Positions 8,045 to 62,510 of a stretch of 64,000 bases of DNA are shown piece after piece; the first letter of the stretch is position 1; each line of letters starts with the position of its first letter. Where the stretch lies: assembly GCA_020091685.1 (NCBI GenBank), contig CM034599.1:40007945-40071944 (forward strand), written 5' to 3'. The position numbers and the translations under genes were made by a program. The stretch comes from Lutjanus erythropterus. Lineage: Eukaryota; Chordata; Actinopteri; Lutjaniformes; Lutjanidae. The notes beneath the pieces were generated by a model. The model was not told the origin of the DNA, did no database searches, and was given only the letters and a program-made list of their open reading frames with translations.

Positions 8045-11000
8045 TGTGCAGTGTCCCTAAATCAGACCGTACCACTGTCCATAAGAACCTGATTGTTGCT
8101 CTGGGCGTCGCTGAGCTGCTGTTGATGTGCAGTGACTGGGCGTCTGCCAATGAGGTGAGACTCCACATCTGACATTAGTATGAGATTTTCACAGTACGAC
8201 AACTGTGAGTTTCACAATTACACAATGATTATTATTATCATCAGTCACGGTGACCCTTAAAGGAAAAATATGTGATATATTTACTGTAATAAATCATAGC
8301 AAACATGTTAATTTGAAATTCTCTCTTCACTTGACATGAACATTACAGCTGTGGTGTGCCCCTTTGAAATTTCCCTTCTGAACCAGAATAACTGTTTTGT
8401 ATGTCTGTTTCACATTTATTAGAATTCAGATTGATGCAGATTTTTTTGCCAAATGAGTAAGTCTCTGTTTATGAGTTGTGAGTAATCATTAATAAGTCTT
8501 GTAGAAGGCGTAGATGTTTATAACTGTTAAATTGATCAAAATGTTAATTGAGTTTGGTAAGCAGTAGAGTGTGATATTTCATCATACTGGGCTTTTGTTT
8601 TCAGGATAACAGGCTGAACTTTACATTGACAGACAACTGACAGCAGTTGATCAACTTACAGTGGAGGACTCATCACTTGTTATTGTCAGCTCACAATGTA
8701 GTGTGTATCCTGCAGAGCTCCTGCGGCACTCCTGCAGCATGGGGCAACCATAGATCGTATATTAAACAGGATTATAGCCTATTTACTACAGAATCTATGG
8801 CTGCAACTCACTATTTTGACTGTAGTACTCACTTTTACATACTGAGTGGCCACATACTGCTCATAGAAAACTGAAAAAAAACAGATCTATAGCACTTATT
8901 TCACAAAATATTGTGAACCTTGATATAAACTCACTCATAGTAAGAAGCCGTTTGAGAAAATAGTCTTTTTGGGTTTACTCAAGGTACTGTATCACTGTAT
9001 GGGTCCAATTTCATGGACTCATCCCTTGCCCACACCAAACCTAAAAACAAGAACCAACCTGTTACCTGCAATTATCTCAAAGTCAAATGTGCACTCGCCT
9101 GGAATCGTGAATAAGAGCCCCACAACACGACCCACACCCGTGATTTAACACACGTACAGACGTTTACTTGTTACTTGTCACTCATGCGTATTCTCGGCTG
9201 GCACTGTGCCTGTGCTCTTGCAGTTGTTGATGTGTGTCCATGGTGACACCGAGCCTCACTTGCAGCTATCAAAAGCTAATGCTTTCTGATACTTTCTACA
9301 AACAGCAAGTCACTGACAACATTATTCTAACGTTATTCAACATTATTTTAGTGCACCCTTCAAGCACACTCCCAAATGTCCGACTCTGACAATTTATTAT
9401 ACACAATTTGGTGTCCTCCACTGGCTGTTTTTGCCTTTATGTCACTGATATTAGACAGCAGCTATCCCCCAACAATAAGATACATTCCATTGTTTGGCAG
9501 GATGTGGTGTCGATGGTCGTGCCTGCGGGCTGATTATACTTGATATTACTTTTTTTAGCAGATGTAAATGTTAAAAATACTACACAATCATTTTTATGAT
9601 TTTTATGATTTCTCCATGGAAAAAAACATATTATTATATTGTGAATGCTTTATTTTTTACTTTTTGCAGATCACCTGTGACCCAAGGACTGTAGGGTTTT
9701 TAAGACTCTAATTTCAGCATGTTATGTAATCCTAATTGAGTGGCTTTCCTCTATCACCACCTTCAAGTCAGGACAGGTTATTTAGAATTTCCTCTCAACA
9801 GATGGTGCAGACACAGACAATCTCGTGAGGACAAATCGGGATGTACTGGACTGCGAGATGCTCTGGCTGATGGCCTGACAGGGCAGGGCTTGATTTAGGT
9901 TGTTTTCAACATGGCAAACAAAAAATAGGCAATAAAATAAAAGAATACTGATTCATATTTGATCAGCACTGCCTAGTTTGACAGTTTGATCAAATTTATG
10001 TGAATCTTGGGCATTCAGGCACAGCCACTGGTCCAGATGAGAGTATCTGCAGGTGCACAGTACTACAGGACATGCCTACCACATAACACACCCTGGAAAC
10101 AGTCACAGTTTGGTACCAGGTTTTGGCACCATGCTTGGTTAGGTTTAGGAGAAGATTTTGGTTTGGACCAGCTCACAAACCAACTTTGTTGTTGTATATT
10201 TTGAATCTTACAGGCAGCGTGCTTCGCGGTGACAGCACTGCTGCACCTCTTCTTCATGGCCTCCTTCTCCTGGATGCTGGTGGAGGGGCTGCTGCTCTGG
10301 AGCAAAGTCGTGTCTGTCAACATCAGCGAGGACCGCAGGATGAAGCTCTACTACATCATTGGCTGGGGTAAAGTCTCATCTCCCTTCAGTTGCTTCTGTC
10401 AAGTTGGAGTTTGATGTATGATGTGATTATGTGTAGATCTGGATCCATTTCTTGTTTTTCCACCATGATACATCCCAAAACGAGCTCGCTTGATCAGTTA
10501 AATCTGTCATTATCATAATATCTGTCATTATCATAATATATGAGGTACCTTATTGCGCTTTATAGGATAGCCACCATGTTGAATAAAAGGAAACTTTTTT
10601 CATGTCATCTCGACTTTAAAACAGAATCATGATCTTGATATCTCAAACTAATTAAGCTTCAATGTTTAACATCAGCTTTTCTTTCACACAAATTTACCAA
10701 ATTTGCTTTAATGTAAAATGTATTCATCTTCATCTTCTTTCTTAGACAACTATACCCAGTGTTGGGCAGTAGCGGCGTTACAAGTAGCGGCATTACTAGT
10801 TTAACTACATTTCTCAGTAACTTGGTCGTAATGTCGCTGTTTTCTATATAAAATAGCTTGTCAGCAGTTAAGCTACTTCAGTGATCAAATAACGCAGTAG
10901 CGCCCACAGAAGCTACATTTCCCCAGGCATTTCTAAACCTTAAATGCATCCCTTCCATGTGACGTCACGTACCTGTCCTCCTACTGATGCCCGCCATAGA

Positions 11001-14000: not shown

Positions 14001-15143
14001 TGTGGATACAACATAGATATGCCAAAGAACAGATCTGGGCTGTCACAGACTTGGTATTTCACCTGGATGGGCATACAGGATGTAGCAGCGTATGCTTCAG
14101 CAAGCTCATGGATGAGTTTTGCAAGCATCTCAGCCCATGTTCCGAGTACACGAAAATAGTTGGACTGAGTGGGGAAGTGTAGGGTAATTTTATTTCCAAA
14201 GTTTGGAAAATCAGACTGCATAACACATGCATACAGTATGAGATCAGTTTATTTGATTTTTGCAAGCCTTGTAAACCTGTCTGGGCAAGATACTGCACTA
14301 ATATCAGAATACAGGCTCTTGTTTTTGTACATAATTTAGTGCATTATGTCTATATATATTTGCACTAATCAGTTATATTCTCCAGTATGACAATATGATG
14401 GTCTATTTTAAAATTCATCTACAGTCAGGTTAAACTCATTTGAAAATTTAAAGTGCAAGAAGCCAAAATCTAAGTGCATCTTCATAAACTGATGATAAAA
14501 AAAAAATTAAAAAAAAGAAGAAGAATCTCTGCTTGAAGTTTGGAGATGGACATGAGGTCTCCTTTGGGTTTCAGCCTGTAGGGGCTGCTAGTGTGACTGT
14601 AGACTTTTAGACTTGTTGATGATTTATCTATGTTAATTTATGTCGACACTTAGACAAACATTATGTGATATGATGTTATGCTGTACTGCAGCCTTAACCC
14701 AGTTTTATTTTTGTTTTGTTTTTTAAAGTAACATCCTGCAGCTGCTACTGTCCATGTTCCCAGATCCATCTGTGAGTGTGTGTTATGGCACATAATGAGC
14801 TGAGGACAGTGTGTGAATAAGCACCACAAACACTCAACGCTCAGGTGTTCCTCTCAGCTCTTCATGCAGACGTGCTGCATGTCCTCCTGTCAGACTAAAT
14901 AGACTCAGAGAACGCAGCAGACTAAATAGTCTGTTCTGCTGTTCCATAAATATGTCTTTATTTTATTACATTTTCTTGTATTGAATTGTTTTTCAGGACT
15001 TCCTGTTCTAATCGTTGGTGTAACACTGGCCGTATCAGTGGATGAGTACAAGGCAGACGATCACTGCTGGCTCAATGTGAAGACTGACACCATCTGGGCC
15101 TTTGTGGGACCTGTTATATTTGTCTTGGCGGTATGTAATCATG

Positions 15144-15184
<41 letters not shown>

Positions 15185-18100: not shown

Positions 18101-21100
18101 TAGAACAATGCAAGTTGATAAATATTCAAAAAAGTGCCATTACAAATGTTTAAGGATGAAGGAAATGCATTTAACATTTTTGCCAGGCTTCAAGGACACA
18201 CGCAATGTAATTTAGTAGAACGACTATATGCAAAAGCTAAACAAAAGTTGGATTGATATGATAAGTGATGTAATTGTTGAATTATCTCAAAAATCCCAAA
18301 CAACACAGAGGATCATTGTAAGCCTCTAAGATGAATATTGAGCTTCTGTATTTCCCTTCTATATTTTTTGCATGTTGTATTTTTTTCCCTTTCAGGCCAG
18401 GAGCAGTGAAAACTGAAATAATGCACATCAGCTGAGTGCTGTTACTGTGCTGTGAAATCGTGCAGCCTGGAGGAGGAGGGCAAGCTTTCCCTCCTCTACA
18501 TGTGAGCTTGAGGCCAAGTGGATTCTGCAGAGGCACATCTCATGTTAGCTGGAGGCCATGTTGATGCTGTTGTCCTCTGCCTGCAGGTCAATGCAGTAGT
18601 GCTGTGTCGGGTTGTCATGGTGACCGTTTCCAGCGCTCGCCGGCGCGCTAAGATGCTCAGTCCAAGCTCGGCATCAAAGATGCAGACCTTTGACCTCACC
18701 TGGTGAGATACAATGGCTCCTCAAGCTCTCTCTGTCACTCTCTCTCTCTCCTCCTGCTTTTTGTGCTCGTTCTTTCATCACTCTGTTTCTCTCGTGCGCC
18801 CACTCGCTCTCACACTCTCTCTCTCACGCACACGTTTCCTTTTTGGTCGAGCCAGCCGTAGTCAATAGAGGCAGTGTGAGAGAGTTTAGGCTCGGGAGGG
18901 TGCTGTGGGAGCTGTAAGGCCTTATCAGCTTAACACCTGGTCCCAACACAACCCAATGTGTGTGTGTGTGTGAGAGAGAGAGCTGCACCTTGAGTTTTGT
19001 CTTTACTTAAAACTACATTCTGCCAAAAATTCTGTTATTTAACAAAAGCTGCTGTGTTTCAGCTTCCGTCCAGCAGTGTTCAATTCTTCTGTATGTTCAG
19101 TGTCTAAATAACGAAGGTGAATTTAGGACAGCACCTTTAACGTTTGTGCCATTCACTGAACAAACCTAATTACAGAGGACTGTCTGAAGGCCTTTTTGTA
19201 GCATGTGTACATCCCTCAGTTTTGTTCTGGGGCCTTGACAACACAATTTCAAACTGAGCACAGAAGCCATCGCTAGTTCAGTTAAAGGGCGAGTCTGAAG
19301 ATGTTTTCCTAACTGTCAACAAATCCTGTAAAATGATTCACACCAACAATCTGTATATGTTATTCAAGAAAGCACAAATAATCTGATGGAAACTATTTTT
19401 CATTTTTCAATGCAAAGTTGCTCCTTATTATTTGGAAAAAGTCAGCTCAATGATTACCTCGGCATAATTATCATAACAATTAATGCAAAGGCAACCAATC
19501 CCCATGAATTCTGCATGACCTTGCAATTTTGTCCAATCGCCGCAACTTTTCCACAAAATTGACCAATCATTGTAGCTTCCCCTGATTTCCACCAATGACG
19601 CCCTACACAAATGTTATGTTTTTTATTTTGTCATGGGTACTGAAAAGTTTTTTTTAATGATGTTCATCAATGTTCTGAGAACTTTTATATTTCATAATTT
19701 TGTGCTTGTTAAGTTGGCTGAGGTTGAGCTCCACAAAGATTCTGCTTCTTTGTGGAATATCCACCGGTGCACTTCTACATTTAAAGTACAAAGAAAGCAT
19801 ATTTTGTCATAATTGTTGTAATCCTGAGCATGAGCCATTTGAGAAGGTTACCTGGAACACTCAGAACAAAGTGTGGTTTTATTCTCACTGGAACATGTTG
19901 CCTTTGATTTTTAGTAACTTATTCAAACAATGCAATTTTGACTCATGTCTGCAATCTCTTTGCAAAAAAATGCAGAAAAACATTTAAAAGACAAGTGTGC
20001 ATCTAGTGGTGGAATAAAATTGCAGTTAACTTGCCTGACAACCATGTAGGAGAATCTACGGTGGCCTTGAAACTCACAAAAAAATGTGAAAGACCATATC
20101 TAGATCCAGTGTTTGGTTTGTCCTCTCTGGGCTATTTCATGGACCCCCTCCCTCTGTAGATATTAAGGGCTCATTCTCTGGTAACAAAACCACAATGATT
20201 CTTACTTTCAGGTGATTATACAGGAATGTAAAAAATTTTATGAACATTATATCCATTTCAGCAAATAGATCCTCTTCAGTGTCACACACTTAACCTTTAA
20301 TGCACCAAGATGATCCCCTTTGTACAGATTTGCAAAACTTTTTTTTAATTTCAGTTCCTGAGTTTCTGTGTCCCCCAGTTAAAGGAGAGGTGGTGGTGGG
20401 TTGCTGTTCATAAGACTCGTTTAGCTAAAAATAACTGTAAATTCTTATACTGTAAATCCTCACTGTAAAATTTTTGCTGCTAATATTCTGTATAATCCAA
20501 TCCGCCACGTATGTATACATATATATACAAACCCAATCTTCGATCAGTATGAGGATGAGTAAATAAAGACTGAATTTTCATTTTTGGGTGAACTATCCCT
20601 TTAATGGTAGTGGTGGAAAGTATTTTTATTCAAGTACTGTTCTTAAGTACAATATTACGGTATGCTACTTTACTGGAGTATTTCCAGTTTGTGCTGCTTT
20701 ATACTTCACCACTGGTTCATGCTGAAAAAGGAGCGTGTCACCCAGTGCAGCAGTTCACTGCTGTGTTTTTTACTCGTTTTTGGACAACAATGGAACTCTA
20801 TGGCACTGAGGAGGAAGATATACCAGGCTTTGGATCAGTTTGGGTCTTTTTGTGGGATTTGTTGACAATAAGGAATATGTAGAATCTCACCAGGCTTTTA
20901 AAAAGAGCCAGCTTTAAGAGACATTTTTGTTTTGTTATTACAAAATTCTTATTTCCTATTATAGCCAGTTTGCATACATAATGTGTGATTGCCAGTCAGA
21001 GGCTGAATGCCATTTCCCTTTTCATTGTGTTGGATCTGTTGACGTTGCTATTGGTTACAGGATGATAGTACAAACATTTCTAGTAAACCTGCTGCAGCAT

Positions 21101-24100
21101 ACTTATGTATGCAAGAATCATTTCCTGCAGTAAAACCACAGGTGCTCGCTGTGGTGCTGCTGAATGATTTCTGATAAACCACACATAAATATTTCTGGCA
21201 AAATGTGCAATTGAAAGGGTCATTAAATATGTCACACAGTAGCAATCATAGTCCTTGCTTTTATCTTTTTTTAGAGCTACTTTCTGCCAGATAAATAGTC
21301 CAAATGACAACAATTGACAGCCAGGTCCATGAAGTCTAGAGAGTAATGGAAACAATGAGAGTATTGAGGCCAAGCATAAGGAGACAAAATGAGAGGAAGG
21401 AGTGTTTTTAATCTTGCATTTCGAGAATAAAATTGAAATGGTATTAAATTTTATCTTCAACATTTTGACTCATTTTTTTTTTATTCTCAACATTTTGACT
21501 TTATCCTCGACATTACCACGTCATTCTCTACATGCCATCTTCATTTTTCAACACACACACTTAATGCTCAACATTTACACTTCAGTCTTGGCATCTCGAC
21601 TTCATTCTCAACATCCCCATTTTGACTTTATTCTCAAATTTCCAATTCATTCTCAACATCTCAACGTCATTCTTAACATTTCATCTTCATTCTCGACATT
21701 CCCCCTTCATCCTTATATCCCCATTTCATTCTCAACTTTTCATCTTCATTTGCAACATTTACAGCTCATACTCAACATTTAGAATTCATTTTCGACATTT
21801 CAGCATCATTATTAACATTTATTTTCATTCTTAACGTTTCAACTTTATTCTCGACATTTTGACTTTAATCTCAAAATGCAGAACAAAAAAACTGTTTTTC
21901 CCTCTGATTTATTTTTTCTTTTGCCTGGCACTAAAACTGAAAGTTTGACTTCATCCTCTGCATTTCAACTTTATTCTCCACCTTTTGACTTTATTTTTGA
22001 CATTTCCACTTCATTCTCAACATTTTGACTTTATTCTCAAAACCTCCAAGTAATTTTTCCTCTGCCTGACACTAATACTGAGAGTTCTCGACATTTTGAC
22101 TTTATTCTTGACGTTTCAATTTTAATTTAATTTAATTTAAATTTAATTTTAAATACAAAATTAAAAAATAAAAATCTTCCTTCTCTCATTTCTCATGCCT
22201 GGCCCAAATACTCTTTCATAGGGGAAGGATGCTGATTCTTGATTTTATGAATGTAATTTTTCAATTCTGTGCCCACCACATATAAAACTCCATTCACCTC
22301 CACTGTATTCAGGCAGATGCAGAAATCTCAGAGGCAGACACTCAAAACCTGGACAAATAAAACCAAAACTATGTGTGATAAAAACTAGTTGAGATAAATG
22401 AGAAAATATGTTCTTTGTAATTTAGGTGAGCCCTCTCTTTAATGTACTGAATCACTTCAGTGATTTGCTGAATCACTCTGACAGTGCATTATGACAGTGC
22501 AGGATCACGCCATCTAAATCTTCCTCATACTGTTGAGTGTGAGGATTACACATAAATGGATCTATGTGCAGTGTGTATTAGTGAAATCTCTCTTTCAGTA
22601 TTTTGAGCACTAATGTGCTTTTTCAGAGATATACACAGGTGAGTACACTAGAATTAGCAGGTACTACTAATATGTCTAATGGCTGAGGAGAGACAATTTC
22701 ACATTCAAATAAAAAGGCCTTCAACCCAACATGCAGCAGCTCTCTTCCATCCACATTTTCTTTTCTCACGTTTGTCTTAGCCTGATGGAAATGCTACGGC
22801 GCCATTCCCCCTCTCGCTGGCTCCCTTCATTCCCTCACAAACACACTGAGAGTGCATGTGTGTGCCAGCTCTAGAGCGTTACATGAATTCAGGAGAGTAG
22901 AGGGAAAGCGACTTTCAAAAATAAAAGGGAAGAGAGGGAAGTGGGTGCTGGCTTTGTCCTTGTAGACACAGTGTAGTCTGAAAACTCAATCTTTCTACCC
23001 AGGTGCAGCAGTGTGACAACAATAGTGGTTTGAACAAAGGCAACCTTTTCCGCCTTGCCCCATGAAATGGTTATTGGCCGTATAAGCACCAGGATCATTG
23101 AAAGGATGATTGCAAAGGAACAGGAGCATGACTGTGGGAGGCGGTAAAATCTATAGCTGTGCAGAGATGTTTGATGAGGATTCAAGGAGGAAATATTTTA
23201 GAAGAAAACGCTGCTGGCTGCTTCAGTCAATACTCATGTTTTCTAAAATGCTCAACAAAGAGAAAGTATACAAAGTACTGAGGAATCAAAGTGTGCCACA
23301 ACACAATGAGAAGTTTTGTTTCAGTGTCTGTGAGACATCTGTATTGGAGAGTATAGAGATATGTGCACATATGATTCATGTATGTGCATTTTGTGTATGT
23401 TTGCAGGGCTGTGACGCGCCCAGTTCTCATCCTGCTGCCAGTGCTCGGTCTCACCTGGCTGTGTGGAGTGCTGGTCCATCTGTCTGTAGTAGTTGCCTAC
23501 ATCTTCATCGCTCTCAACTCCTTCCAGGTAAACAAAAGTCCATAATGTCTGCAAAAGTGTAATTGTATAAGGTACTTACTCATGGAAACTGGCACACCCC
23601 CAGTTTGAAGAAGCAGCAGGAGTACAAGTCTAGGAAACTAAGAATGTACAGCTGTCACTTTCCCTCACTATCAGACAGACTTTTCTCCACTCTCTCCAAA
23701 GTAATCAGACTCCTCTGGCAAAAAGAACATGGCAGTTCCTGTCAACTGCTACCTTGATTAGTTAATCGGTTTGTATTATTTCTGATGTTTGTGTTGTAAC
23801 ATGTTAGGTCAGTTTCAACAAGTTTGCACAGTAACACAGACAAATTAACAAGTTGAGGCAGCGGCAGACAAGAAACTCCTGTGTTCTGTGATGCAGTCTG
23901 GTGGCTTTGGAGTGATATTTGGTGATACATATATACATATATATATATATATGTGTGTGGATGTGTGTGGGTGTGTGTGTGTGTGTGTGTATAATATATA
24001 TAAAATATACAATACATACAATACAAATATTTAATTAATGAGACTTCATTAATAGTGAAGTAGGGAAGACCAGGGATGGTCATAACACTTTTTGTACCAG

Positions 24101-33600: not shown

Positions 33601-36600
33601 GCTTAGTAAATATCCTCCTATTGTCTAGTTTGCACCCTCATTCTGGATTCCATTGTGTCCATACTCATTCTTGAGAACTGGAACAAAACTGTGTTTTGAG
33701 AGGTTTTTTAATTTTTACTTCAATTATGCTGGAAAGTATATTTTAACAGATCAAACTCTTGGCTATTAAACCTTGTAACCTTGTAGAGTTGACAAAATGT
33801 TGAATTTTTGTTTCATTTCACAGCATAGTCATAGTGAGAAGCCATTTTATTTTTTTAAAAAGTGTCTCAGAGTTCTCTTAGTGCTAATAATCAAAATACA
33901 CATTTTTCAATCATAATTCTTATTTAGCTAGAGGCTAAGGGCTACAGAGTTTTGTAAAAATCTTACAGAGTTGAGTTGACACAACTTTGAAGGGCCAACA
34001 TTTTCATTAAAAATCAATTTTAAAATAATGTTTATTATAATAGCACATTTCTATACCTATGTTATCAGTGGGTATTGTTAGTTTTAGTTTTTGAAAGCTT
34101 TTAACACATTTCTAAATTGTTTGAAGTTGTGAATTCTAGTCTGGGACAAAGGCGCTTTCTGACCCAAAGCTTAGCAGCGCTTAGAAATTAAAAAAATATT
34201 CATTTCTTTATTTCTTAAATTACATATGCTACATAAATTTAAATTAGAATTAGTGTTGGTATAATACCATATAAGGCTGTGCTTCCTGTCCCATATGTCA
34301 GGAAGTGTTCATTTATGGATGCAGCATCAAAGAGTAAAAAGAGAAACTCTACAAGTTTGGAGTTTGACATTCTGCTTTCAGAGATCCATGAAGGAAAATC
34401 TGTCATTTTAACAACCTCAGCAGTGGAATTTCACTTCATTTCATTCATTAGGATTCCCATTAGCTGCAGCCGTAGCAACAGCTATTCTTCCTGGGGTCCA
34501 CTCCAAACACAACACTATATACATTACAGTACATACACACAAAAACAAAAAAGACAAAACAAACAAACAAACAAACAAACAAAAACCAACCCCCTCCACC
34601 ACAACAACAACATCAATAGAAACAACACAAAACAGGACCACACACACAGATACAGGATACCAGTGGGTCATATATAAATTAATTTGGCCAATTATATTCA
34701 AAGTCAATAGCTCAGGTCATCAGTGGGCTAACAGGAAAGCCTCCAGATGCTCAAAAACTCTATAAAAAAGGTTTTATAGCGCTTCCATTATTCTACAGCA
34801 TTATTTCATTATAGTGACACACAACAAAAATATCCTTTAACATGTCTGTTTGTCAACTAAAAAATCAGTAGGTGAGGAGAGCTGTTTTCAAGTGATCTTC
34901 ACTGTTCTCCTGGATGATACACTCCTGCAGAGAGTTCCATGTAACCACTGCTCTGTACATTACACTGTTCTTCAACATACTAGTCTTGATTTTGGCTAAT
35001 GTAAATCTGGTGTGATAATCATGTACATCTGAGCTCAGGTGTAATTGTTTACATAATACCCCTGGTGATTTTGTAGCTAAAATATTTCTGATAAAGTTGA
35101 GTAAAGACAAAGTAAATGTACCATCTATCTTTAGCCAAGATAAACAGTTATGCATTGTGTTTACACTGGTTCTGTCTGAATTATTATTTGGGTTATGGAA
35201 GTATGGGACCAAACCACACAGCAGTAGTCCAGTTGTCTCCTTATAACTGAAAGACCTTCCCCCATCTTACTCACTGCTTTATCAATATGCATTCACCAAG
35301 ATAATTTGTTGTCTAATGTTACCCCTAAAAGTTTGGTCTCCTGAACTTGTTTAACATCTTCAACATCTTTTGTATATATTTTAATGCATTCTGTAGAATC
35401 ATTAGCATACATGGCGACTTTTAATTTTTCCAAACATTAATGGTAAATCATTTGTTAAAAAAAATAATAATAATAAATAAATAAATAAAAAAAATATAGC
35501 ATAATGGACCCAGACAGCTTCCTTGAGGAACTCCACAACTATTTGATTTGATATCAGAAAAACTTCCATTAAAGAAAAACGTCTGTTTTCTATCATTTTC
35601 TAACCATAAATACTGCAGTCGGACCATAGAATGTCCCTTTTTATATGCATGTTGGAAATCTGTATTCAAGTCATTGAATGAAAAATAGCATTGTATTTTT
35701 TCATAAACTATTCTTTCCATGATCTTACTCAAAGCAGGTAACAGGCTAATTAGATGGCAATTAGGGCCAGAAAATGGCACACTTACATTTTTGGACAATG
35801 GAATGATCTTCAATTTTCCAAGCTTGGGGATAAATAAATTTTTCCACGCTCAAATTAACACAATCAAGTGTGCTGTTATTTTTTGATTAATTTTCCATTC
35901 AAATTATCAACCCCAAATGGTTTGTCTTTACATCCAGTTCACAACTTCTCCACATAACTTACAGTAAGTTTGGTAAATTCAAACCGACAATTTTTGTCTC
36001 TCATAATTTTATCTTTTATCAAGTCATATGATTGCCCATTTTCGGTTTGGTCCATTGCATTCCTTAATTTATTTACTTTGCAATTAAAATAATGTTTCAA
36101 ATAATTAGCAATATCAACTTTCAAAGTTTCCAGAAATTATGGAGTGGATTTGGATCTTCTACCCATGATATCATTAACAGTATTCCACAGTTTTTTATTA
36201 TCATGTTTTATATTATTAATCACATCTTTGTAATACACCTTTTTATTCCTTTTATTTAACCTAGTTACATAATTTCTTCATTTGCAGTAAATTTGTCAGT
36301 CTGAAATGTAGCCAGACTTCTTTGCTACTTACTTTGCTTGATCTCTGTGTGTCATACAATCCCAGAATTCCTCACCAATCCAGGGGATCTAACATTTCTA
36401 ATAGTTCTCTTTTTCACAGGTGCATGTTTATCAATTATTGTCACAAATAGGTCACTAAAAGTTTTGAGTGCTTCATCTGGATCCTCTTTTATCAACACAC
36501 TCTCACGATCGCCACTAAGTTATGATCACTATAAACTTTTGGTATCGATATAGCTTTAGAACACAGTTCCACTGAGTTAGAACAGATATGATCTATACAG

Positions 36601-38192
36601 GTAGATGTTCTAGGTTCATCACTTTTTATACGCACTCGAGTTAGCTTAGTTTCTACTTGTGTTAGACCACATGCAATTGTTACAGTGAGAAGCTTTTTCT
36701 TAAGTGGACAATCCAGTGAGTTCCAGTCAATATTCAGGTCCCCAAGGAAGAATATTTCATTGTCATGATCACACACCGAGTCCAACATGTCACACAATTT
36801 ATTGAGATAAATTTGCACTGGGTGACCTGTAACCACATCCTATCAGTAGGGGCGACAGATGAGGCACATGAACTGATAGTCACCCCACCCCCATATACAT
36901 TTCTATCCCCTCTATCATATCCATCTATATTCAATGCAGAATCTTCAACTATGGGATCAAGATGAGTCTCTGATATTATTAAAACATATTTAATATCTAT
37001 TAACAGCAAGCATATGTTAATATGAGCTACCTTTAACCCTTTCCTGGGTAATAAACCTTTTCTTTTGTAAAAAAAAAAAAAAAAAAAAAGGGTGAGTGCT
37101 GTTAATGCCGTCTTACCTGAGGGTCAGATTGTCACTGAAATATAGAAGAAACGTCTCAATATGAAAATGGCTTCAAAGGAAAAAATAATGTTTTGCCACA
37201 GCAAAGTGATCGATGACTGCAGGGGGAGGAGGGGGTCAGGGGAAGTTTCCATCACAGAGACAGAGGACAGAATAAGTGAGGATGTTCCAGTGGACGGAGA
37301 CTTTATGAACCTGCATGTGAACATATACAGCCAATACACCTGACAGCTTTATGTGTCATTTTACAATTATATTGTGATTTGAAATGCAGTCAAACAGGAT
37401 CATGTCAACATAATTATGAAGTGTAATTTATTTTTCAAACTCAAAAGGACTTCACAGTGATGAAATAAAAACTTTTGTTTAGATACCAGCAGACCGACTG
37501 TTACGACTGCTAAGGTCTGGACCTTGTATCTTCATTTTTGAAAGAAAATTGAAAATACAAGAAAATTGGTGATTGCCACAAGTTCTCTTAAATCCCTCTT
37601 ATGCACCACTTAAGAATAAATCTGTCTCAATAAATGAGACTGTCTTCTGCACCTTCACTGCACTTTGTGACTGAAATAAGTCAATGATGAGTGACAGGAC
37701 ATCAGATTGCAGATGATGCCGTTTCACCTCATGTCGTGTCTCGGTTTATCTCATCAGTGGCAATCCGTCCCGGAGACACAAGGACGTGACTAAATGACAA
37801 TTCTTTAGAAACAAAAGTGCAAATAAAGGGGCTTTGCATATAGAACATAAAGAACCTAAATGTTTTATACTGACTGAATTCTCCAAATATTCTATTGTCA
37901 TGTTCATATTGCTGCATCTTTGTTCCTCTGTGTATTTCATAAAGCTCTCTTTGTGTTGTGCTTTGTGTTGCTTGTACGTTTTGGCCTTGCAAACAAATGT
38001 GTTGGTCCTGAAAGAGCAATGCAAACTTTAAATACAAACGGGTGTGTTGTTGTTGTCTTTCAGAGAGCTTCAGAAAGGAGAGCTTTGTGAGTTTCTCTTT
38101 AAAATCTGCATCAGGAAACCAAGTAAGTAACATACATGTATGAATTATCACTGCACTGTTGTGTATCACACTGTTTAAATCTGACTGGGTAA

Positions 38193-40681: not shown

Positions 40682-41784
40682 TACACCAATCAGGCATAAC
40701 ATTATGAACACCTGCCTAATATTGTGTTGGACCCCTTTTGCTGCCAAAACAGCCCTGACCCGTTGAGTCATGGACTCCACTAGACCCCTGAAGGTGTGCT
40801 GTGGTATCTGGCACCAAGATGTTAGCAGCAGATCCTTTAAGTCCTGTAAGTTGCGAGGTGGGGCCTCCATGGATCAGACTTGTTTGTCCAGCACATCCCA
40901 CAGATGCTTGATTGTCGTCGTTGTCATTGTTGTGCTCCTCAAATCATTCCCGAACCAGTTTTGCTTTGTGGCACGGTGCATTATCCTGCTGAAAGAGGCC
41001 ACAGCCATCAGGGAATACTGTTTCCATGAAAGAGTGTACATGGTCTGCAACAATGCTTAGGTAGGTGATACGTGTCAAAGTAACATCCACATGGATGGCA
41101 GGACCCAAGGTTTCCCAGCAGAACATTGCCCAAAGCATCACACTGCCTCTGCCAGCTTGCCTTCTTCCCATAGTGCATAGTGTCCTGATGCCATGTGTTC
41201 CCCAGGTAAGTGACACACAAGCACCTGGCCATACACGTGATGTAAAAGAAAACATGATTCATCAGACCAGGCCTCCTTCTTCCATTGCTCCATGGTCCAG
41301 TTCTGATGCTCACGTGTCCATTGTTGGTGCTTTCTGTGGTGCACAGGGGTCAGCATGGACACCCTGACTGGTCTGCAGCTATGCAGCCCCATACACAACA
41401 AACTGTGATGCACTGTGTATTTCTGACACCTTTCTATCAGAACCAGCATTAACTTCTTCAGTTTAAGCAACAGTAGCTCGTCTGTTGGATCAGACCACAC
41501 AGGCCAGCCTTCACTCCCCACGTGCATCAATGAGTCTTGGCCGCCCATGACCCTGTCACTGGTTCACCACTGTTCCTTCCTTGGACCACTTTTGATAGAT
41601 ACTGATACATGCAGTGGACTGTGGTGGTGCCCATTTTTCCTGCTTCTAACACATCAACCTTGAGGACAAAATGTTCACTTTTTGCCTACTATATCCCACC
41701 CACTAATAGGCGCCATGACGAAGAGATAATCAGTGTTATTCACTTCACCTGTCAGTGCTCATAATGTTATGCCTGATCAGTGTA
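40682..41784 (-). mobile_element. Tc1-like transposon, inactive
   Basis: The ends TACACCAATCAGGCATAACA and (complement of right) TACACTGATCAGGCATAACA are terminal inverted repeats bounded by TA. On the minus strand the transposase pieces follow in order: QQWTREHQNWTMEQWKK, WSDESCFLLHHV, GSVMLWAMFCWETLGPA, LFQQDNAPCHKAK and LQDLKDLLLTSWCQIPQHTF. The first two Asp motifs (SDES, DNAPCHK) are visible. The stretch that should carry the PDLNPIE motif, around 40900-40940, is shortened. Frame changes split the protein into at least three parts. Confidence 0.9.
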
Positions 41785-44610: not shown

Positions 44611-44654
44611 ATAATGTTGAAAACACAAGGTGATGCCAGTAGGATGACATCAGA

Positions 44655-44852
44655 TTTCATTCCATATATTCAAGGTTCATTCCATATATTCAAAATTTCA
44701 TTCCAGAAATTCAAACTTTCATTCCATATATTCAAGGTTCATTCAATATATTCAGAGTTTAATTCCATATATTCGAGGTTCATTCAATATATTCAGAGTT
44801 TCATTCCATATATTCGAGGTTCATTCAATATATTCAGAGTTTCATTCCATAT
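44655..44852. repeat. minisatellite, TTCATTCCATATATTCAAGG unit
   Basis: Ten units of 20-21 bases. From about 44735 on they form a 41-base higher-order unit that alternates ATTCGAGGTTCATTCAATAT with ATTCAGAGTTTCATTCCATA. The array is open in one frame but is not coding. Confidence 0.9.
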
Positions 44853-45174
44853 ATTCAAAAAAGGCAGGAATACTGCTCAAGTACTGGTAAACCTTTTATT
44901 TTTAGACAAATTAATTGAATAATATTGCTATCAGATGTGTCTCTCAACTCTGTAGCTCTTCTAAATCAAAGCTAAATAAGAAATATGGTTTAGAAATGTG
45001 TATTTTGATTAGCATTAAGAGAACTCTGGGACACTTTAAAAATAAAATGGCTGCTCACTATGACGACGCTGTGAAATGAAGAAATGTAACATTTTGTCAG
45101 CTCTGTAAGATGTCAACTCTGTCAGATTTTTACAAAAACTTGATTTAATTAGGCATGAAAAGGGTTAGCTATAC

Positions 45175-55111: not shown

Positions 55112-55365
55112 TCACACGCACGCTCGCTTGGCGTGCAGCATCTCAATGAGCAGGTTGTTGCAGGGCACCTCTCCACTCAGGTGCATGTAGCACAGGTAGT
55201 CCTCGGCCTGCGTGCTGAGGGAGCGCAGCTCCGGCAGCCGCACCATCAGCTGGCTGAACTTCTCCTGGAACTGTGGGTAGGTGGACAGGGTGTACTCCAG
55301 CAGGGCCCCGTTCACCTGCTCCTGGACGCCCTCCACGAACGCCTGGTCCTCCAGCAGCTTCACAT
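55112..55365 (-). CDS. nr5a1: nr5a1 last coding exon (helices 9-12, AF-2)
   Basis: The acceptor on the minus strand is GTGTGTATGTAG, just upstream of 55365, and the stop is TGA at 55114-55112. It encodes [19 protein letters not shown], then [49 protein letters not shown] and [15 protein letters not shown]. The AF-2 helix LLIEML is intact. In DYLCYMH the first Tyr matches human SF-1 Tyr436, but the position of Lys440 is Met (codon ATG). The protein ends two residues (CV) beyond the usual HAKRA ending. Confidence 0.93.
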
Positions 55366-58300
55366 CTACATACACACACAGAGCATGGATTATGAATCAG
55401 GCTGTAGATGTAGTCATGTATAAACCTCTTGTCCATCACTAAAAGTAAAGTCAGAATTTCCAAATTTATCAAATATGTCTGAATTCAGGAGAAATAAGAA
55501 TAAAATGATGCACAAACACCTGAATATTTCTATTTGATGTAATGAGTGTGAACATCATATAGTTACAATGAAGAGTCAAACTGGTTACAGGTATATGATA
55601 TAGCCAGAAAGATGGTGAATTAGATATATTTTTAATTCAGCGGAGATAAAAGGGTTAACTGGATTTTCAGAGGTTAATGATTCACATTGTAGAGAACATA
55701 AAGGAGTATCAATGATGCATCATTTTATCTTGTTTTATAGATCTAAACTGTACAGAAATGTATAGCTGCCATACTGGAAAAACACAAAATCGATCAGTAT
55801 CATGTTATAATGTTCATACTTTATGGGTAGAAAAAGATGTTTCTCACAAAATAAGACATTTTCATATCATTCTGACACACAAACTACATACAAGTTAGAA
55901 CATTATGACAGGAAATGCTTTATTTTATAACAAGATAAATAATATATTGTTATAATAATCAAGTTCCTTCTTATAACATGATTCATGTCTATGTTGTAAT
56001 ATCGTGCTATAACCTGAAAATATCTTGTTATAATGTGAAAAATATCTTGTTATGACAATAAACTTTTCACACTATAATGCTGATCTGTTTTTCTTTTTCT
56101 GGATTGAAATCATGCTTTCAGTCAACCTGCTCTCATGCATTTTTTTATATTTCCATAAAAAATTAAGTTCTTTCTATTTGAAAATATATTGAAAAAATAG
56201 ACGATTTTTAGGTGTAGGTGATGTAGAAATCTGCTGTTTTCTCTCCTGCTGTTCACTGCAGTGTATATTCAGCTGTCATTTACAAGACAACCCAACAAAA
56301 TTAACAATAATTTGGGAGTTTTAATAAAAGGGTGTGCTTTACTGAGAAACACTAAAAAAGTTAAGCTTTCTAATCATCTAAATGAAAATATTAGCATAAC
56401 AAGAAACACAAAACCATTCCCATTTGGAGCATCACAAAATAATCTTATCATGCCTTTGACTTACTGAGTTTTCAGCTGCATCTCACAGTCTTCATCACTA
56501 AGTTTTATACTTAGCTCACGTTTTAACAACAATGTAAATGCAAATTCATCCTTGACACAAAATCTTAGTGTGGAGTCCATACAAATGTTCAAAACTGTCA
56601 AAATAACAATGAAAACTTAATGTTCACTTCACACAAATACTCATCTCTTGTGACATTGACAAATGTTTTTGCCAACAAGTTTTGATTTTTTTAGTTACTT
56701 TTGCTAAAATCTATAAAGCTGAATTAGTTCAAGACCAATTAACACAACATACATACTGCAATTACCATATATTTTGATAGTTTGATAGTAGTAACAAATA
56801 ATTTATATTCAATTAACATGACAAAAGCACATAATTACAATTATTATTACAGTTGCAGTGTTATGCTCTGCATAAATAAATACAAAAATATTTTGCTCAC
56901 TTAACATAAAACTGCAGCAGTTGTGTTTTCACCAACTTGATATTTACTTGTACACACAATTTAATAAAATTTGATAGGATTTTAAGTTTTTTTTTTGTTA
57001 AACCAGCTCAACATTCTTGCATATTAAAGGTTTGGGTGCATGCTGTAAAATATTAAGCTAACAGCAGTTAACTGAGTCATCCCCACGACATCTCCAAACT
57101 TCACATGGTGGTGAGGTTTGTGAGATGCTGTTGAAAGGAAAATGGTGAGTAAGTGGACCCCAACTTGAAAACATTTTCTAGAATATTCCTGTTTTGCTTT
57201 GCAGATTCTTTTAAATGTTTGTTAAATTTGCACATTTTGATAGAAACTAGGTAAGTTTTTGGTCTGTATGGGTTTTTGAAGCTTTATTCAGGTAATATTT
57301 TTGCACTCAAGCTTCCAATCGCCAATATTCAGGATAAAATTTGACCATCTTCATGAGAAATTCCTTCATTTTTTTTTCTACTATGTTAGTGTTTAAACGT
57401 TATATAAGTGAATATTGAAGTTCCATATGCCACAACAAAGAAATACAGCGGCTTGAATGCTGCATACAACCCATTCATTTATGGCATAAATGCTAGCTAC
57501 TACATTTTATATTTATGCTGTATCTATACTTATGTATGAAATAAGGTGAGTGTGGGTGGCTGTGTGCATGTTTGTGTGTAAGAGACAATAGCCAAGCCCT
57601 TCGGTGGACCGGCATTCAGTATCAGCTGAGCCCATCTTGGAGAATCCATTCACACAGTAATTAAATGTTTTGAATCAATGTTCTGAATCATCTTTTCAAA
57701 CTGCTTAAGGGCAATTAAATTACCCCCGACAAACCTGACTCTGAAGATGAGGCAGAGCACGAGCGCGAGCAAAGAAGCCACAGGCAAACACAGCAAATAT
57801 TTTCTGCCTACGACAAGAGCTCTCACCATTCAAAAGCTCTTTGTTCCCCGCTCCGCCAGCGCTAAACAGCAAACACTTCTGGGAATCTGGGCAAGCCACA
57901 TCTATGCTCTCTCCATCTGTACAAGCCACTACATGAATGTCGGTCCTGCCATCGAATGATAGACCCATCCATTACGCTTCTTTTGAATGCCATTAGTGGA
58001 CAATGGAGGAGGATGTCTTTGTTAATATTGGCTTTTGTCAACCCTAGAAATTTAATTAAGTGAATTTATCGGAGGGAAAAAGGCCAGTTTGGAAAACGCT
58101 TGTAACCTTACAGATAAATAGGTACTGCAGATAATTTGCAATTGTGACATTTTTTTCATTAAAATGTCAGTGTTGCTATTTAAATTCCGCCAAAGGACAG
58201 CATCAGTATGGCCCTGCAGCCCCACGAAGCTGATTGATTTTCACATCCAAACCTGTTATTCTACTGACAACACAATCTACAGGCTACAAATGGAAGCTCA

Positions 58301-61300
58301 GGTCTTTCAAAACACATTTAACTGCAGATAGTTCAATCAAGGATGAATCTGTCTTACATAAACTATAATGTTTAAAGGAAGAGACCTCATACTGTAGGCC
58401 TGTGTGAAATATTAATATGATTTTCCTTGTTTGAACTGTTTTACACTGACAAACCTCAACAGGTCAGATATAAGCTGTGCTGACATCATCTCTGTTCATA
58501 AAATCTAGTTTTTACCTGAAGATGATCACAGGCAACAGCTATAAGTCATTATTAGCTTTTTGGGGGGTGTAATATTTGATGTGGCTATTTACATATTAGG
58601 AGCATTATTTATTTATAATAATTAGTACAAAATACTCATATCCTAGCATGGAAGAGACAAGTACCCTTGTCCATACGCAGCAATGCTATTTGTACTTGGG
58701 GTAAAATATATATATAAGTATAACATACTAGCATGGCCAGGTATCTGTAACCAACGATGCTATTTGCACAGGGGGTGAAATATCCAGTGTGGCTATTTAG
58801 ACTCAGGAGTATTAGTTATTTCTAATCATTAGCTCAAAATACTTATAGACTAGCATAGCAGAGACAAGCACATATGTGACAGTTCCCAACAGTGCTATTT
58901 GCATTTGGGGTGTAAATAACCAATGTGGCTATTTACGCTTGGTTGGTGGAGACAAATCATAATCTTTTCCTAAACCTAACTAAGTACATTTGTTGCCTAC
59001 ACTGAACCAAACTTCAGCTGAAAACTTAAAAACAAAATTAAAGAAAAAAGAAAAAATGAGAAGGAAAAACAAAAATCACACCAGACTCAAATCCTAGTCT
59101 CCAATGTGAGAGAGCTGTATTTGACTCATTGTCGCTCTTTATAGCTAAACCAGGAGGCTGGGAATAAATAGGTGAATAGCTGCCCGGTGACTATTCTCAC
59201 TAGAGTCCAAATAGATCTTCTGCATACACATCACGAATGAAGCACAAACATGAGGGTGACTCACTTGGGTTGAACAGCAGGAGGAATTTCAGACAGGCGA
59301 TCTCTCTGCGGTCCACCTGCAGCGCCCGCAGCCTCGCCGCCAGCTCCTGACCTCTCTGGACCAGACCAGACAGAGTGGCCTCGGCTTGGGACAGGATGAA
59401 CGACAGCTCCACCTGAAAACACATACAGGCTGCTGTTAATTTTCCAAGTCCCTTACATTCATGAGACTTTTAAAAATTCAAACCTTAAACTTCTCACCTG
59501 TATTTCTGATTTCTGTGGAACTTTATCACTCAGTATCAGGAGGATGGATGTCTCTCACTTATTCAAAACTAAGGTTACATCATTTTGAAAACTCTTCATA
59601 TTCATATTGTTATATGGTAGCTAAGAAAAATACAGTTGTTTCATAAGAAGTCCTGTAATCCTTCTGCTGTATACCAATGTCAAGTAGGCATTTATACCTG
59701 TTCTGTATTTTAGACACAGAACAACAGAAAACCCCAGTGTACGTAGCATTTCATTTCCACTGTACCCAGCAGTACATGTGGTGAATTAAATTAGTTTACA
59801 CAAACAAATAATGATTTTATAAAACTGTATTTTATATGATGTTCATCAGTCTATATTATTATTGTTATTAATATTTTACAGAAGGGCTGGACGTTACAAA
59901 ATTATTATATTGATATAGTGATATGAGACTAGATATCGTCTTAGATTTTGTTAGATCATGATATGACATAAGTGTTGTCTTTTCCTGGTTTTAAAGGCTG
60001 CATAACAGTAAAATGATGTAATTTATTACTTTTTTTTGTTACTTACCAGACTGTACTAGCTGTTCTATTATTTGCCTTTACCCACTTAATCATTATATCC
60101 ACATTACTGATGATTATTTATCAAAAATCTCTTTGTGTTAATAATCTGTGAAAGCACCAATGCCTACAATATTGCTGCAGTTTCAATACAGGTATTTGGT
60201 CAAATATATTGTGATATTTTCTTTTGTCCAAATCACCCAGCCCCTACGTTTGCACCATTTCAGAATGTATGGCGTGTCATTTTATGGAAAATATATCAGA
60301 ATAGCCCAAATGTATTGAGATATTATTTATAAGCCATATACCCCAGCCCTATTTACAGTATGTGAACAGTTCTCATAAGTTCAGTTATAATGTGCTTTAG
60401 GGCTTCATATTCCCAAAATTAAGTTAGACCAGCTGACATAGTTTGAGCTTAAGGCAGTTGTCCATTGCAGTCTAACCTTGGTATATATAATGTTGCTCTA
60501 AATGTGTTCATTATGGCATCAGAAAAAACTCTGATCTATCTTTCGATTTAGCACTATATTAAAACATACATTATATAATTAAATAACTGTCTCCAGAAAT
60601 GAATTTATCTCATTCAGACCATTTAACCAGCTTGAGGAAGGCCGTTCCAGCTGTACACGGATATGCTAATACAGTGGTTTATCATGTAGCATATGAATAC
60701 AGTCTCATGGCAATTGGTCATGAATCTATGAATCTATTACATTGATCTACATGTATTTGTGTCATTTTCCTTTTTTTTTGTGACACAACTTTCAATCTTA
60801 AGTATTATCCATCACCATTCTCATTCCACTGTTACGTGAGAAAAATAAAGATGCAACATCCTGTTACACTTTCAGAATAAAAGTCTTTAGTAGGTTTAGC
60901 CACCAATACTACTTGTTTAGTTTTCAAAAAAGATTATGGTTATGGTATCAAAACTACATATTTTTCCCCTGGCCTATCTCTAACTAGATTATTTTGGTGT
61001 GAGTTGCAGAGTTTTGGAGATATTGGCCCTAGAGATATCTGCCTTCTCTCCAGTATAATAGGACTGAATGACACTCTGCTTGTGGTGCTCAAAGAACCAA
61101 AAAATACATTTGAAAAATTAAAAACCAGTGTCTCTTTACAAAAATCATGACCTGGTTACTCAAAATAATCTACAGACCTTGTTGTATGCAGTTTCATGTT
61201 GGAACTACTTTCTTTTTGCAGTAGACTCTACTGTATCTAATTTAAAACATGCATTTTTTATTTTGGTGTCAACTCTCCCTTTAAAACAATCATACTGGGC

Positions 61301-62510
61301 TGGCATATGACACATCAGTTATTGTTAGTCCACCTCTCACATGCTCATGAACAACAAAAGTACGAAAAGCCAAACATTTGATTGTGTGCACATATTAATA
61401 CAAATCAATTCTTCATTTTAAGCGTTTTGATGCATTCCAGAGGTCCGTCCACTGAATAGGTGTAGTAGTAACCGTGCCTTTGTTGAGCTCTTAACCCTAC
61501 AAAAATTTCACTTTCATCTGTTTCAGAGGCTGATAAAACACACAGTTCTGGGGAAACATTATATACTGTCCAGTTTTTGACATGAAAATAACCAAATTTG
61601 GAGATATTTTGAGTTTTAGTACAAAATATGGACTATCAGTGGCTTCAGTCTAAAGATTTTAGCATTGCTCTCCACCTTCATGCCTTACGATACTGAAGTG
61701 TATTGCTGCCACGCCACAAAAAGAAATCCAGTTTTCACATTTTTACAACATACAAATGTTAGAACGTGATAGCTTATATTGTTATAATGATGACAATGAT
61801 GTTAAAAAGATATGTCATCAACTTTTAATGTGAAGTTTCAAGTTTTAACAGGATAAATAGTATATTTAAAAAGTTGAAAAGTTAAAAAGTTTCTTGTTAT
61901 ATAATAAGTTTGCTTATCATCATGATATGAAAATACCTTGCTATAGCAATAAATTTTTCACCGATAACTTTTTCTTTTTTTAAAGCTGATCCATTAAAGG
62001 AATAGTTCACCCCAAAATGAAAATTCAGTCATTATCTATTCACCCTCATACCGATTGAAGGTTGGGTTTAGTTTTTTAGTCCACAAAACACTGCTGGAGT
62101 TTCACAGGAAAACAGTGTTGCAGACAAACAATGGAAGTGAATGGTGACCAGTTTTCAAATGTAAAAAAACAACAGAATAAAAACATAAAAGGCCTCCATA
62201 CTGCTCATCTGGTGTAATCCAAGTCTCCTAAAGACCCAACACACCAAATTGACTAAACGAAAATGTTATTTACGCCATGTTTTTAGCTTGAATCTTCACT
62301 GAATCTTCACATTTTGAATTAAGTGCAGTGCAGGTAAATGAAGCAGACTGTGCATGGGACTGATAGGAAGTTTTGTGAGGGAGCTGTTACCTCCTGGCCG
62401 GTCACCAGCAGGATACTGTCTTCCTGTCCATGTTGCACTTGTCTGAAAATGTGATCCAGGACCAGAAGTTCAGACCAGCAGTTATGGAGCAGCTTCATTT
62501 GATCTCCCAC
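55112..62510 (-). CDS. nr5a1: NR5A nuclear receptor (SF-1/Ad4BP type), ligand-binding-domain exons; 5' part outside window
   Basis: Orphan nuclear receptor of the FTZ-F1 group; in vertebrates NR5A1 controls steroid-hormone synthesis and gonad, adrenal and hypothalamic development. Three exons (62510-62391, 59412-59265, 55365-55112) encode the last about 173 residues of the ligand-binding domain with continuous frame. Motifs are [42 protein letters not shown] and the AF-2 core [11 protein letters not shown]. Exon borders agree with those of mammalian NR5A1 as I remember them. Several residues ([18 protein letters not shown]) are more like NR5A2, as expected of an ancestral state. The name NR5A1 rests on being tail to tail with adgrd2. 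Alternatives are a teleost duplicate (nr5a1a/nr5a1b) or nr5a5. Two pocket residues are altered (see the exon entries). Confidence 0.85.
55740..56085. repeat. TTATAAC/TGAAAATATCTTG degenerate repeat, copy 1
   Basis: Short units such as CTTGTTATAATGTGAAAAAT recur several times. The same family, with CAATAAACTTTTCAC at its end, is at 61670-61975. Confidence 0.6.
57590..58300. promoter_or_regulatory. candidate enhancer in last nr5a1 intron
   Basis: About 700 bases without microsatellites or transposon ends, of higher GC and complexity than the intron around them. They include TTTAATTAAGTGAATTTATC (homeodomain-type TAATTA core), CTTTGTTAATATTGG (Sox/Fox-like) and CTGATTGATTTTCAC (TGATTGAT, Pbx/Hox-like). 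In mouse the ventromedial-hypothalamus and gonadotrope enhancers of Nr5a1 lie in this same intron (intron 6). Conservation itself could not be measured here. Confidence 0.4.
58560..58960. repeat. degenerate long-unit tandem repeat
   Basis: GTAATATTTGATGTGGCTAT (58569), GTGAAATATCCAGTGTGGCT (58775) and GTAAATAACCAATGTGGCTA (58912) head similar units. Each unit also carries GCAATGCTATTTG/ACGATGCTATTTG and ACTAGCATGG/ACTAGCATAG. Unit lengths vary from about 130 to 205 bases. Confidence 0.7.
59265..59412 (-). CDS. nr5a1: nr5a1 ligand-binding-domain exon (helices 6-8)
   Basis: The acceptor is TGTTTTCAG above 59412 and the donor A|GTGAGT below 59265. The exon is 148 nt. It encodes [20 protein letters not shown], then [20 protein letters not shown] and LKFLLLFNP. 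Alignment without gaps to SF-1 puts the Glu of QAEATL at the place of Gly341 (codon GAG). The ending phase (one base) joins the last exon to make Asn. Confidence 0.93.
59883..60352. mobile_element. MITE with AGGGCTGG ends
   Basis: It starts AAGGGCTGGACGTTAC, then GAGACTAGATATCGTCTTAG, and ends TATACCCCAGCCCT. The body is the GATATCG-type sequence typical of a common fish MITE. Confidence 0.65.
61005..61250. repeat. dispersed repeat, GCAGAGTTTTGGAGATAT family, copy 2
   Basis: Same order of motifs as 32038-32330: GCAGAGTTTTGGAGATATTG, CAAAAAATACATTTGAAAAA, TCATGACCTGGTTACTCAAA. Confidence 0.65.
61670..61975. repeat. TTATAAC-type degenerate repeat, copy 2
   Basis: It contains ATGATATGAAAATACCTTGC and CAATAAATTTTTCACC, parallel to 55980-56075. 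Confidence 0.5.
61994..62310. mobile_element. MITE, TTAAAGGGATAGTTCACCC family, copy beside nr5a1 exon
   Basis: It begins TTAAAGGAATAGTTCACCCC and keeps the CACAAAACACTGCTGGAGTT and CTCATCTGGTGTAATCCAAG blocks. The right inverted end is lost. It lies 80 bases from the exon at 62391. Confidence 0.75.
62391..62510 (-). CDS. nr5a1: nr5a1 ligand-binding-domain exon (helices 4-5), 120 nt
   Basis: The acceptor above 62510 is TGTGTTTCCTGGAG and the donor below 62391 is GAG|GTAACA. It encodes [20 protein letters not shown], then [20 protein letters not shown]. This is the NR5A helix 4/5 signature with the WSELLVLDH core. Both ends are phase 0. The acceptor is an unusual GGAG preceded by UG-rich sequence, but the start at VGDQM matches the family's exon border. 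Confidence 0.92.

Follow-up and report, generated by a model that had tools for sequence, protein, structure and literature searches.

The locus and its NR5A gene

The stretch of DNA analysed here, referred to below as the window, comprises 64,000 nucleotides of contig C9 of Lutjanus erythropterus (C9:40007945-40071944); the genome was represented by one assembly of one species (937.6 Mb, 444 contigs). The window carries, on its minus strand, exons 4-6 of an NR5A receptor gene which is best filed as nr5a1 (SF-1). Its product has Glu and Met at the positions of Gly341 and Lys440, two of the three residues forming the phospholipid-coordinating mouth of the ligand pocket in human SF-1, while the third, Tyr436, is kept. 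Exons 1-3 are situated upstream, beyond the window. The exons were located by tblastn with human LRH-1 and SF-1 and delimited by their splice sites and reading frame; the codons of the mouth were read from the alignment described below.

62391..62510, minus strand: nr5a1 exon 4, part of the ligand-binding domain (LBD), 40 residues
59265..59412, minus strand: nr5a1 exon 5, the LBD stretch containing SQAEATL
59380..59382, minus strand: GAG, Glu at human SF-1 Gly341 (Gly421 of LRH-1)
55112..55365, minus strand: nr5a1 exon 6, C-terminal part of the LBD, AF-2 and stop; the protein ends in HAKRACV
55196..55198, minus strand: TAC, the kept Tyr436, four codons ahead of the Met codon (position obtained by counting)
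55184..55186, minus strand: ATG, Met at human SF-1 Lys440 (Lys520 of LRH-1)

The six exons are separated by introns that start with GT and end with AG, and together they read in one frame as a protein of 473 amino acids followed by a single terminal stop. The LBD of the joined protein matches PF00104 (E 1.4e-21, 77.4 bits, cut-off 23.5). The DNA-binding domain (DBD) is intact: both the P-box, CESCKGFFKR, and the FTZ-F1 box, in a 30-residue segment, are present, and identity to two segments of the human SF-1 DBD is 88% and 81%. The AF-2 (LLIEMLHAK) is also intact, as had been predicted. A pseudogene was ruled out by the open frame of 473 amino acids with canonical splices. The NR5A receptor gene is thus intact, and its final three exons are those in the window. 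Human LRH-1 and the copy on contig C7 end in HAKRA; the terminus HAKRACV of the window protein (55112-55123) runs two residues further.

Residues at the mouth of the pocket

The window protein was aligned with MAFFT to six other NR5A sequences: human SF-1, human LRH-1, mouse LRH-1 and the products of the three further NR5A genes found in the genome, here named after their contigs C7, C18 and C19. The letters of the references were checked against PDB chains. Since the window protein aligns to human SF-1 with zero gaps over residues 330-461, the placement of Glu at 341, Tyr at 436 and Met at 440 does not depend on where gaps are put, and an alignment artefact was ruled out by this gapless stretch. 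The original prediction, made from an ungapped reading of the window, had named these same three residues, and both the alignment and the codons GAG, TAC and ATG confirm them.

According to PMC10407255, the residues that hold the phosphate of the phospholipid in human SF-1 are Y436, K440 and, through its main chain, G341, and the triad is called conserved in PMC8178125, in agreement with the contacts on which the original prediction had relied. The window protein keeps one of these three residues. In the alignment, column 341 holds Gly in five of the seven sequences and Glu in two (the window protein and mouse LRH-1), column 436 holds Tyr in all seven, and column 440 holds Lys in five, Arg in C19 and Met in the window protein. 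The other three NR5A genes of the genome read G/Y/K, G/Y/K and G/Y/R at 341/436/440, the last being C19; the mouth change is confined to the window copy among the four genes found.

Two statements of the prediction stand as observations: in mouse LRH-1 the Gly site is occupied by Glu while the Lys is kept, and the Glu of the window protein has no Lys partner. Of the closed mouth of the rodent type, the window protein shows the first feature, Glu at the Gly site, while the Lys of the salt bridge is absent, Met being at 440. The claim that two of three contacts are lost stood only in part. Two residues are changed indeed, but the loss of contact was overstated, since the contact of G341 is made by the main chain (PMC10407255), and Glu adds a charged side chain there and need not remove it.

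Around the mouth, E237, R255, M268, T272, H310 and R313 are all kept in the window protein; H310 is a residue of the pocket. E237, M268, T272 and R313 are named as residues of the pocket in PMC10407255, and R255, of loop 2-3, in PMC8178125.

Frequency of changes at the mouth

The C7 sequence was partial (its first LBD exon was left out), and for this reason the set of invariant columns which includes C7 is limited to the C-terminal part of the LBD. Human SF-1, human LRH-1, C7 and C18 agree at 75 columns, and the window protein deviates from them at nine of these, namely 321, 341, 368, 380, 407, 420, 421, 438 and 440. The chance that nine changes would include two or all three of the mouth residues is p = 0.036; when C7 was dropped, deviations were present at 11 of 102 columns and p was 0.030, both values being post hoc and uncorrected. 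For comparison, the window protein agrees with human SF-1, human LRH-1 and C7 at 82 columns; C18 deviates at 16 of these, and none of the mouth residues is among them. The clustering of the changes at the mouth is suggestive, but it is post hoc and not strong.

Assignment of the gene and its neighbours

When the genome was searched for sequences similar to the window LBD, 19 matches were obtained, a count which is a lower bound for large families. Eight were exons of four NR5A loci, on C9 (the window), C7 (22.57 Mb), C18 (1.74 Mb) and C19 (11.83 Mb), and the other 11 were at most 40% identical. The C7 gene is nr5a2, with 92.4% identity to human LRH-1 over 131 columns. Over 131 ungapped columns the window LBD is more similar to human LRH-1 (64.1%) than to human SF-1 (50.4%), and in phmmer it scored 236 bits against the former and 192-197 bits against the latter. 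In the unrooted LBD tree of seven rows, C9 and C18 form a group at 97/96, which joins human SF-1 with weak support (64/50).

NR6A1-type exons were detected at C9:40141118-40153845, on the minus strand as nr5a1 and about 52 kb upstream of it; their DBD is 97% identical to human NR6A1. The arrangement is like the human gene order, ADGRD2-NR5A1-NR6A1. Since NR6A1 flanks the gene in agreement with this order, the gene is best filed as nr5a1, as the prediction of a receptor of SF-1 type had it. The higher LRH-1 score and identity prompted us to consider nr5a2 or nr5a5/ff1c instead, and both were rejected on account of the NR6A1 flank and of C7 being a clear nr5a2. The C19 gene is perhaps nr5a5/ff1c, which is a guess. 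Zebrafish and ricefield eel are likewise described as having four NR5A genes, of which two are nr5a1 (PMC1298332, PMC11759146), and nr5a5 is described as accelerated in plankton-eating surgeonfishes and allies (PMC13385881).

Downstream of nr5a1 and convergent with it, the exons of a secretin/adhesion-type seven-transmembrane (7TM) receptor span 8068-23542 of the plus strand. The joined piece formed by the following exons matches Pfam 7tm_2 (E 2.7e-34), and the segment 23375-23542 does not reach the Pfam cut-off.

8068..8154, plus strand: secretin/adhesion-type 7TM receptor exon, convergent with nr5a1
10211..10369, plus strand: 7TM receptor exon, in the joined piece
14996..15133, plus strand: 7TM receptor exon, in the joined piece

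A 7TM relative (64%) was found at C7:22470180, about 97 kb from nr5a2 and in the same orientation. Because nr5a2 has such a neighbour too, the 7TM gene alone cannot separate nr5a1 from nr5a2, and it is NR6A1 that separates them. The 7TM relative in equal orientation near nr5a2 suggests that the neighbourhood of this receptor and NR5A predates the split of NR5A1 and NR5A2.

The window also contains fragments resembling a retroelement endonuclease and reverse transcriptase (35451-37123, minus strand, Pfam scores below cut-off) and a Tc-type transposase-like remnant (40944-41563, minus strand), in which HTH_Tnp_Tc3_2 is below cut-off in 41138-41563 and no family matched in 40944-41258. Minisatellite arrays were observed at 44650-44859 and 21483-21874, with units of 41/62 and 20 bases, respectively. 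A scan with the last exon of nr5a1 gave 11 pattern stretches in viral contigs and 203 in bacterial and archaeal contigs, none of which was confirmed; as expected, no relative was found in these contigs.

Constraint and the C18 duplicate

Over 168 LBD codons compared by NG86 between the window gene and C18, the nonsynonymous divergence (dN) was 0.23 and the synonymous divergence (dS) 1.12 (dN/dS approx. 0.20), and the window copy is under constraint. The unique residues of the window and C18 copies numbered 12 and 26 with C7 as outgroup (chi-square 5.2), 15 and 40 with human LRH-1 (11.4), and 15 and 26 with C19 (3.0, below the 5% level of 3.84). Since there were fewer in the window copy than in C18 with each of the three outgroups, the window gene is more plausibly the slower-evolving of the two than a copy in decay. 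The C18 duplicate (C18:1731000-1740999), filed as an nr5a1 co-orthologue, shows the reverse pattern: Gly, Tyr and Lys are kept at the mouth, and the residues at 255, 268 and 310 are Glu, Ile and Ile, respectively.

Interpretation

The explanation we favour, to which we would give somewhat less than an even chance, is that the gene encodes an active SF-1 which still accommodates lipid tails in its pocket, with a weakened grip on the head group and weakened signalling from the mouth to AF-2. The acyl chains would still be buried in the conserved cavity. The phosphate would be held more weakly, by Tyr436 and the main chain of 341 only and beside a like charge, and the signalling from the mouth to AF-2 would be blunted. 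The outcome would be a mostly ligand-independent, active SF-1, the effect being comparable to that in rodent LRH-1, without its Glu-Lys salt bridge. Every step from the residues to lipid binding is inferred. As support we count that the mouth salt bridge made by the Glu of mouse LRH-1 greatly diminishes phospholipid binding according to PMC4965143, as the original prediction had it, and that in human SF-1 K440A lowered the efficacy of synthetic agonists and Y436F lowered basal activity (PMC10407255). NR5A receptors can be active without ligand according to PMC8022936.

Several points weigh against this explanation. Glu may leave the Gly341 contact in place, since this contact is main-chain, and synthetic agonists bound human SF-1 with higher, not lower, affinity when it carried K440A, although the rise was not significant for 6N-10CA (PMC10407255). 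The precedent of mouse LRH-1 is only partial, because the effect there is attributed to a salt bridge between Glu and Lys, impossible with Met. The enrichment at the mouth is weak, its p being only about 0.03-0.04 and post hoc; when C19 was included, the window protein deviated at seven of 63 columns, one of them at the mouth (341), column 440 being no longer invariant because of the Arg in C19. The basis, moreover, is a single species. The original functional prediction, poor phospholipid binding or another ligand with activity kept, is supported only in part: the Glu of mouse LRH-1 is a partial precedent, and the main-chain contact of G341 and the rise of affinity in K440A speak against it (PMC10407255).

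Near-neutral drift at the mouth comes close behind, since position 341 makes its contact through the main chain and K440 is possibly dispensable for ligand binding, as judged by the synthetic-agonist assays of PMC10407255. Glu341 would face the solvent, the main chain of 341, Tyr436 and the basic residues of loop 2-3 would hold the phosphate, and phospholipid would be bound about as in human SF-1. The kept Arg255, the weak enrichment at the mouth and the Lys440Arg of the paralogue C19 are consistent with this. What argues to the contrary is the diminished phospholipid binding that accompanies Glu in mouse LRH-1, though via a salt bridge to Lys (PMC4965143), with human LRH-1 called the more ligand-dependent of the two in PMC6180039, and the loss of agonist efficacy in K440A (PMC10407255). 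We hold this explanation to be a serious contender, slightly less probable than a weakened head-group grip.

It is unlikely, in our estimate, that the acidic, Lys-free mouth favours lipids whose head is cationic or neutral, e.g. sphingosine, over anionic phospholipids. The mouth loses one basic side chain and gains one acidic, and PMC9020094 describes sphingosine in human adrenal cells as an antagonist bound to SF-1, which gives way to phosphatidic acid on cAMP. The support consists of this charge logic and the described binding to human SF-1 only, and these same changes could as well abolish ligand regulation or have no effect.

The opposite patterns of the two copies could also reflect a split of the lipid site after duplication, which we consider similarly doubtful. 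The copy beside NR6A1 would have kept M268, H310 and R255 and lost the mouth (G341E, K440M), the C18 duplicate would have kept the mouth and changed R255E, M268I and H310I, and the result would be one SF-1 that is ligand-free or binds a cationic lipid and one divergent sensor. If this were true, the unpaired Glu would be a further route to a loosened phospholipid control in NR5A, in addition to the salt bridge of rodents and to insect FTZ-F1, in which the pocket is filled. A full-text literature search on fish NR5A lipid contacts gave, among the matches listed, no paper concerned by title or abstract with these columns in fish; papers elsewhere may be. An assembly error or rare allele at one or both codons is very improbable. 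The assembly is a single one, and a single base separates GAG from a Gly codon and ATG from a Lys codon, but errors would have had to arise independently in two exons of an otherwise clean frame of 473 amino acids.

The extent to which phospholipids regulate NR5A receptors is still argued. An SF-1 with a broken triad beside a duplicate with an intact one in the same animal would be a natural experiment on whether the head-group contact matters in vivo, and it would gain weight if both changes prove to be old and common among fishes. In tilapia, the differentiation of Leydig cells and the development of the testis depend on Sf1 (PMC13313686).

Comparison with known systems

The window protein shares with human SF-1 its domain plan, DBD, AF-2, Tyr436 and the named deep-pocket residues, and its gene shares the NR6A1 neighbour; it differs in having Glu and Met where human SF-1 has Gly341 and Lys440. 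Mouse LRH-1 resembles it in the Glu at the Gly site and the kept Tyr, but retains the Lys and the mouth salt bridge where the window protein has Met. The C18 duplicate falls into a joint group with it in the LBD tree (97/96), but has a G/Y/K mouth with Glu 255, Ile 268 and Ile 310. In case of Drosophila FTZ-F1 (NR5A3), NR5A activity is likewise said to be possible without ligand (PMC8022936).

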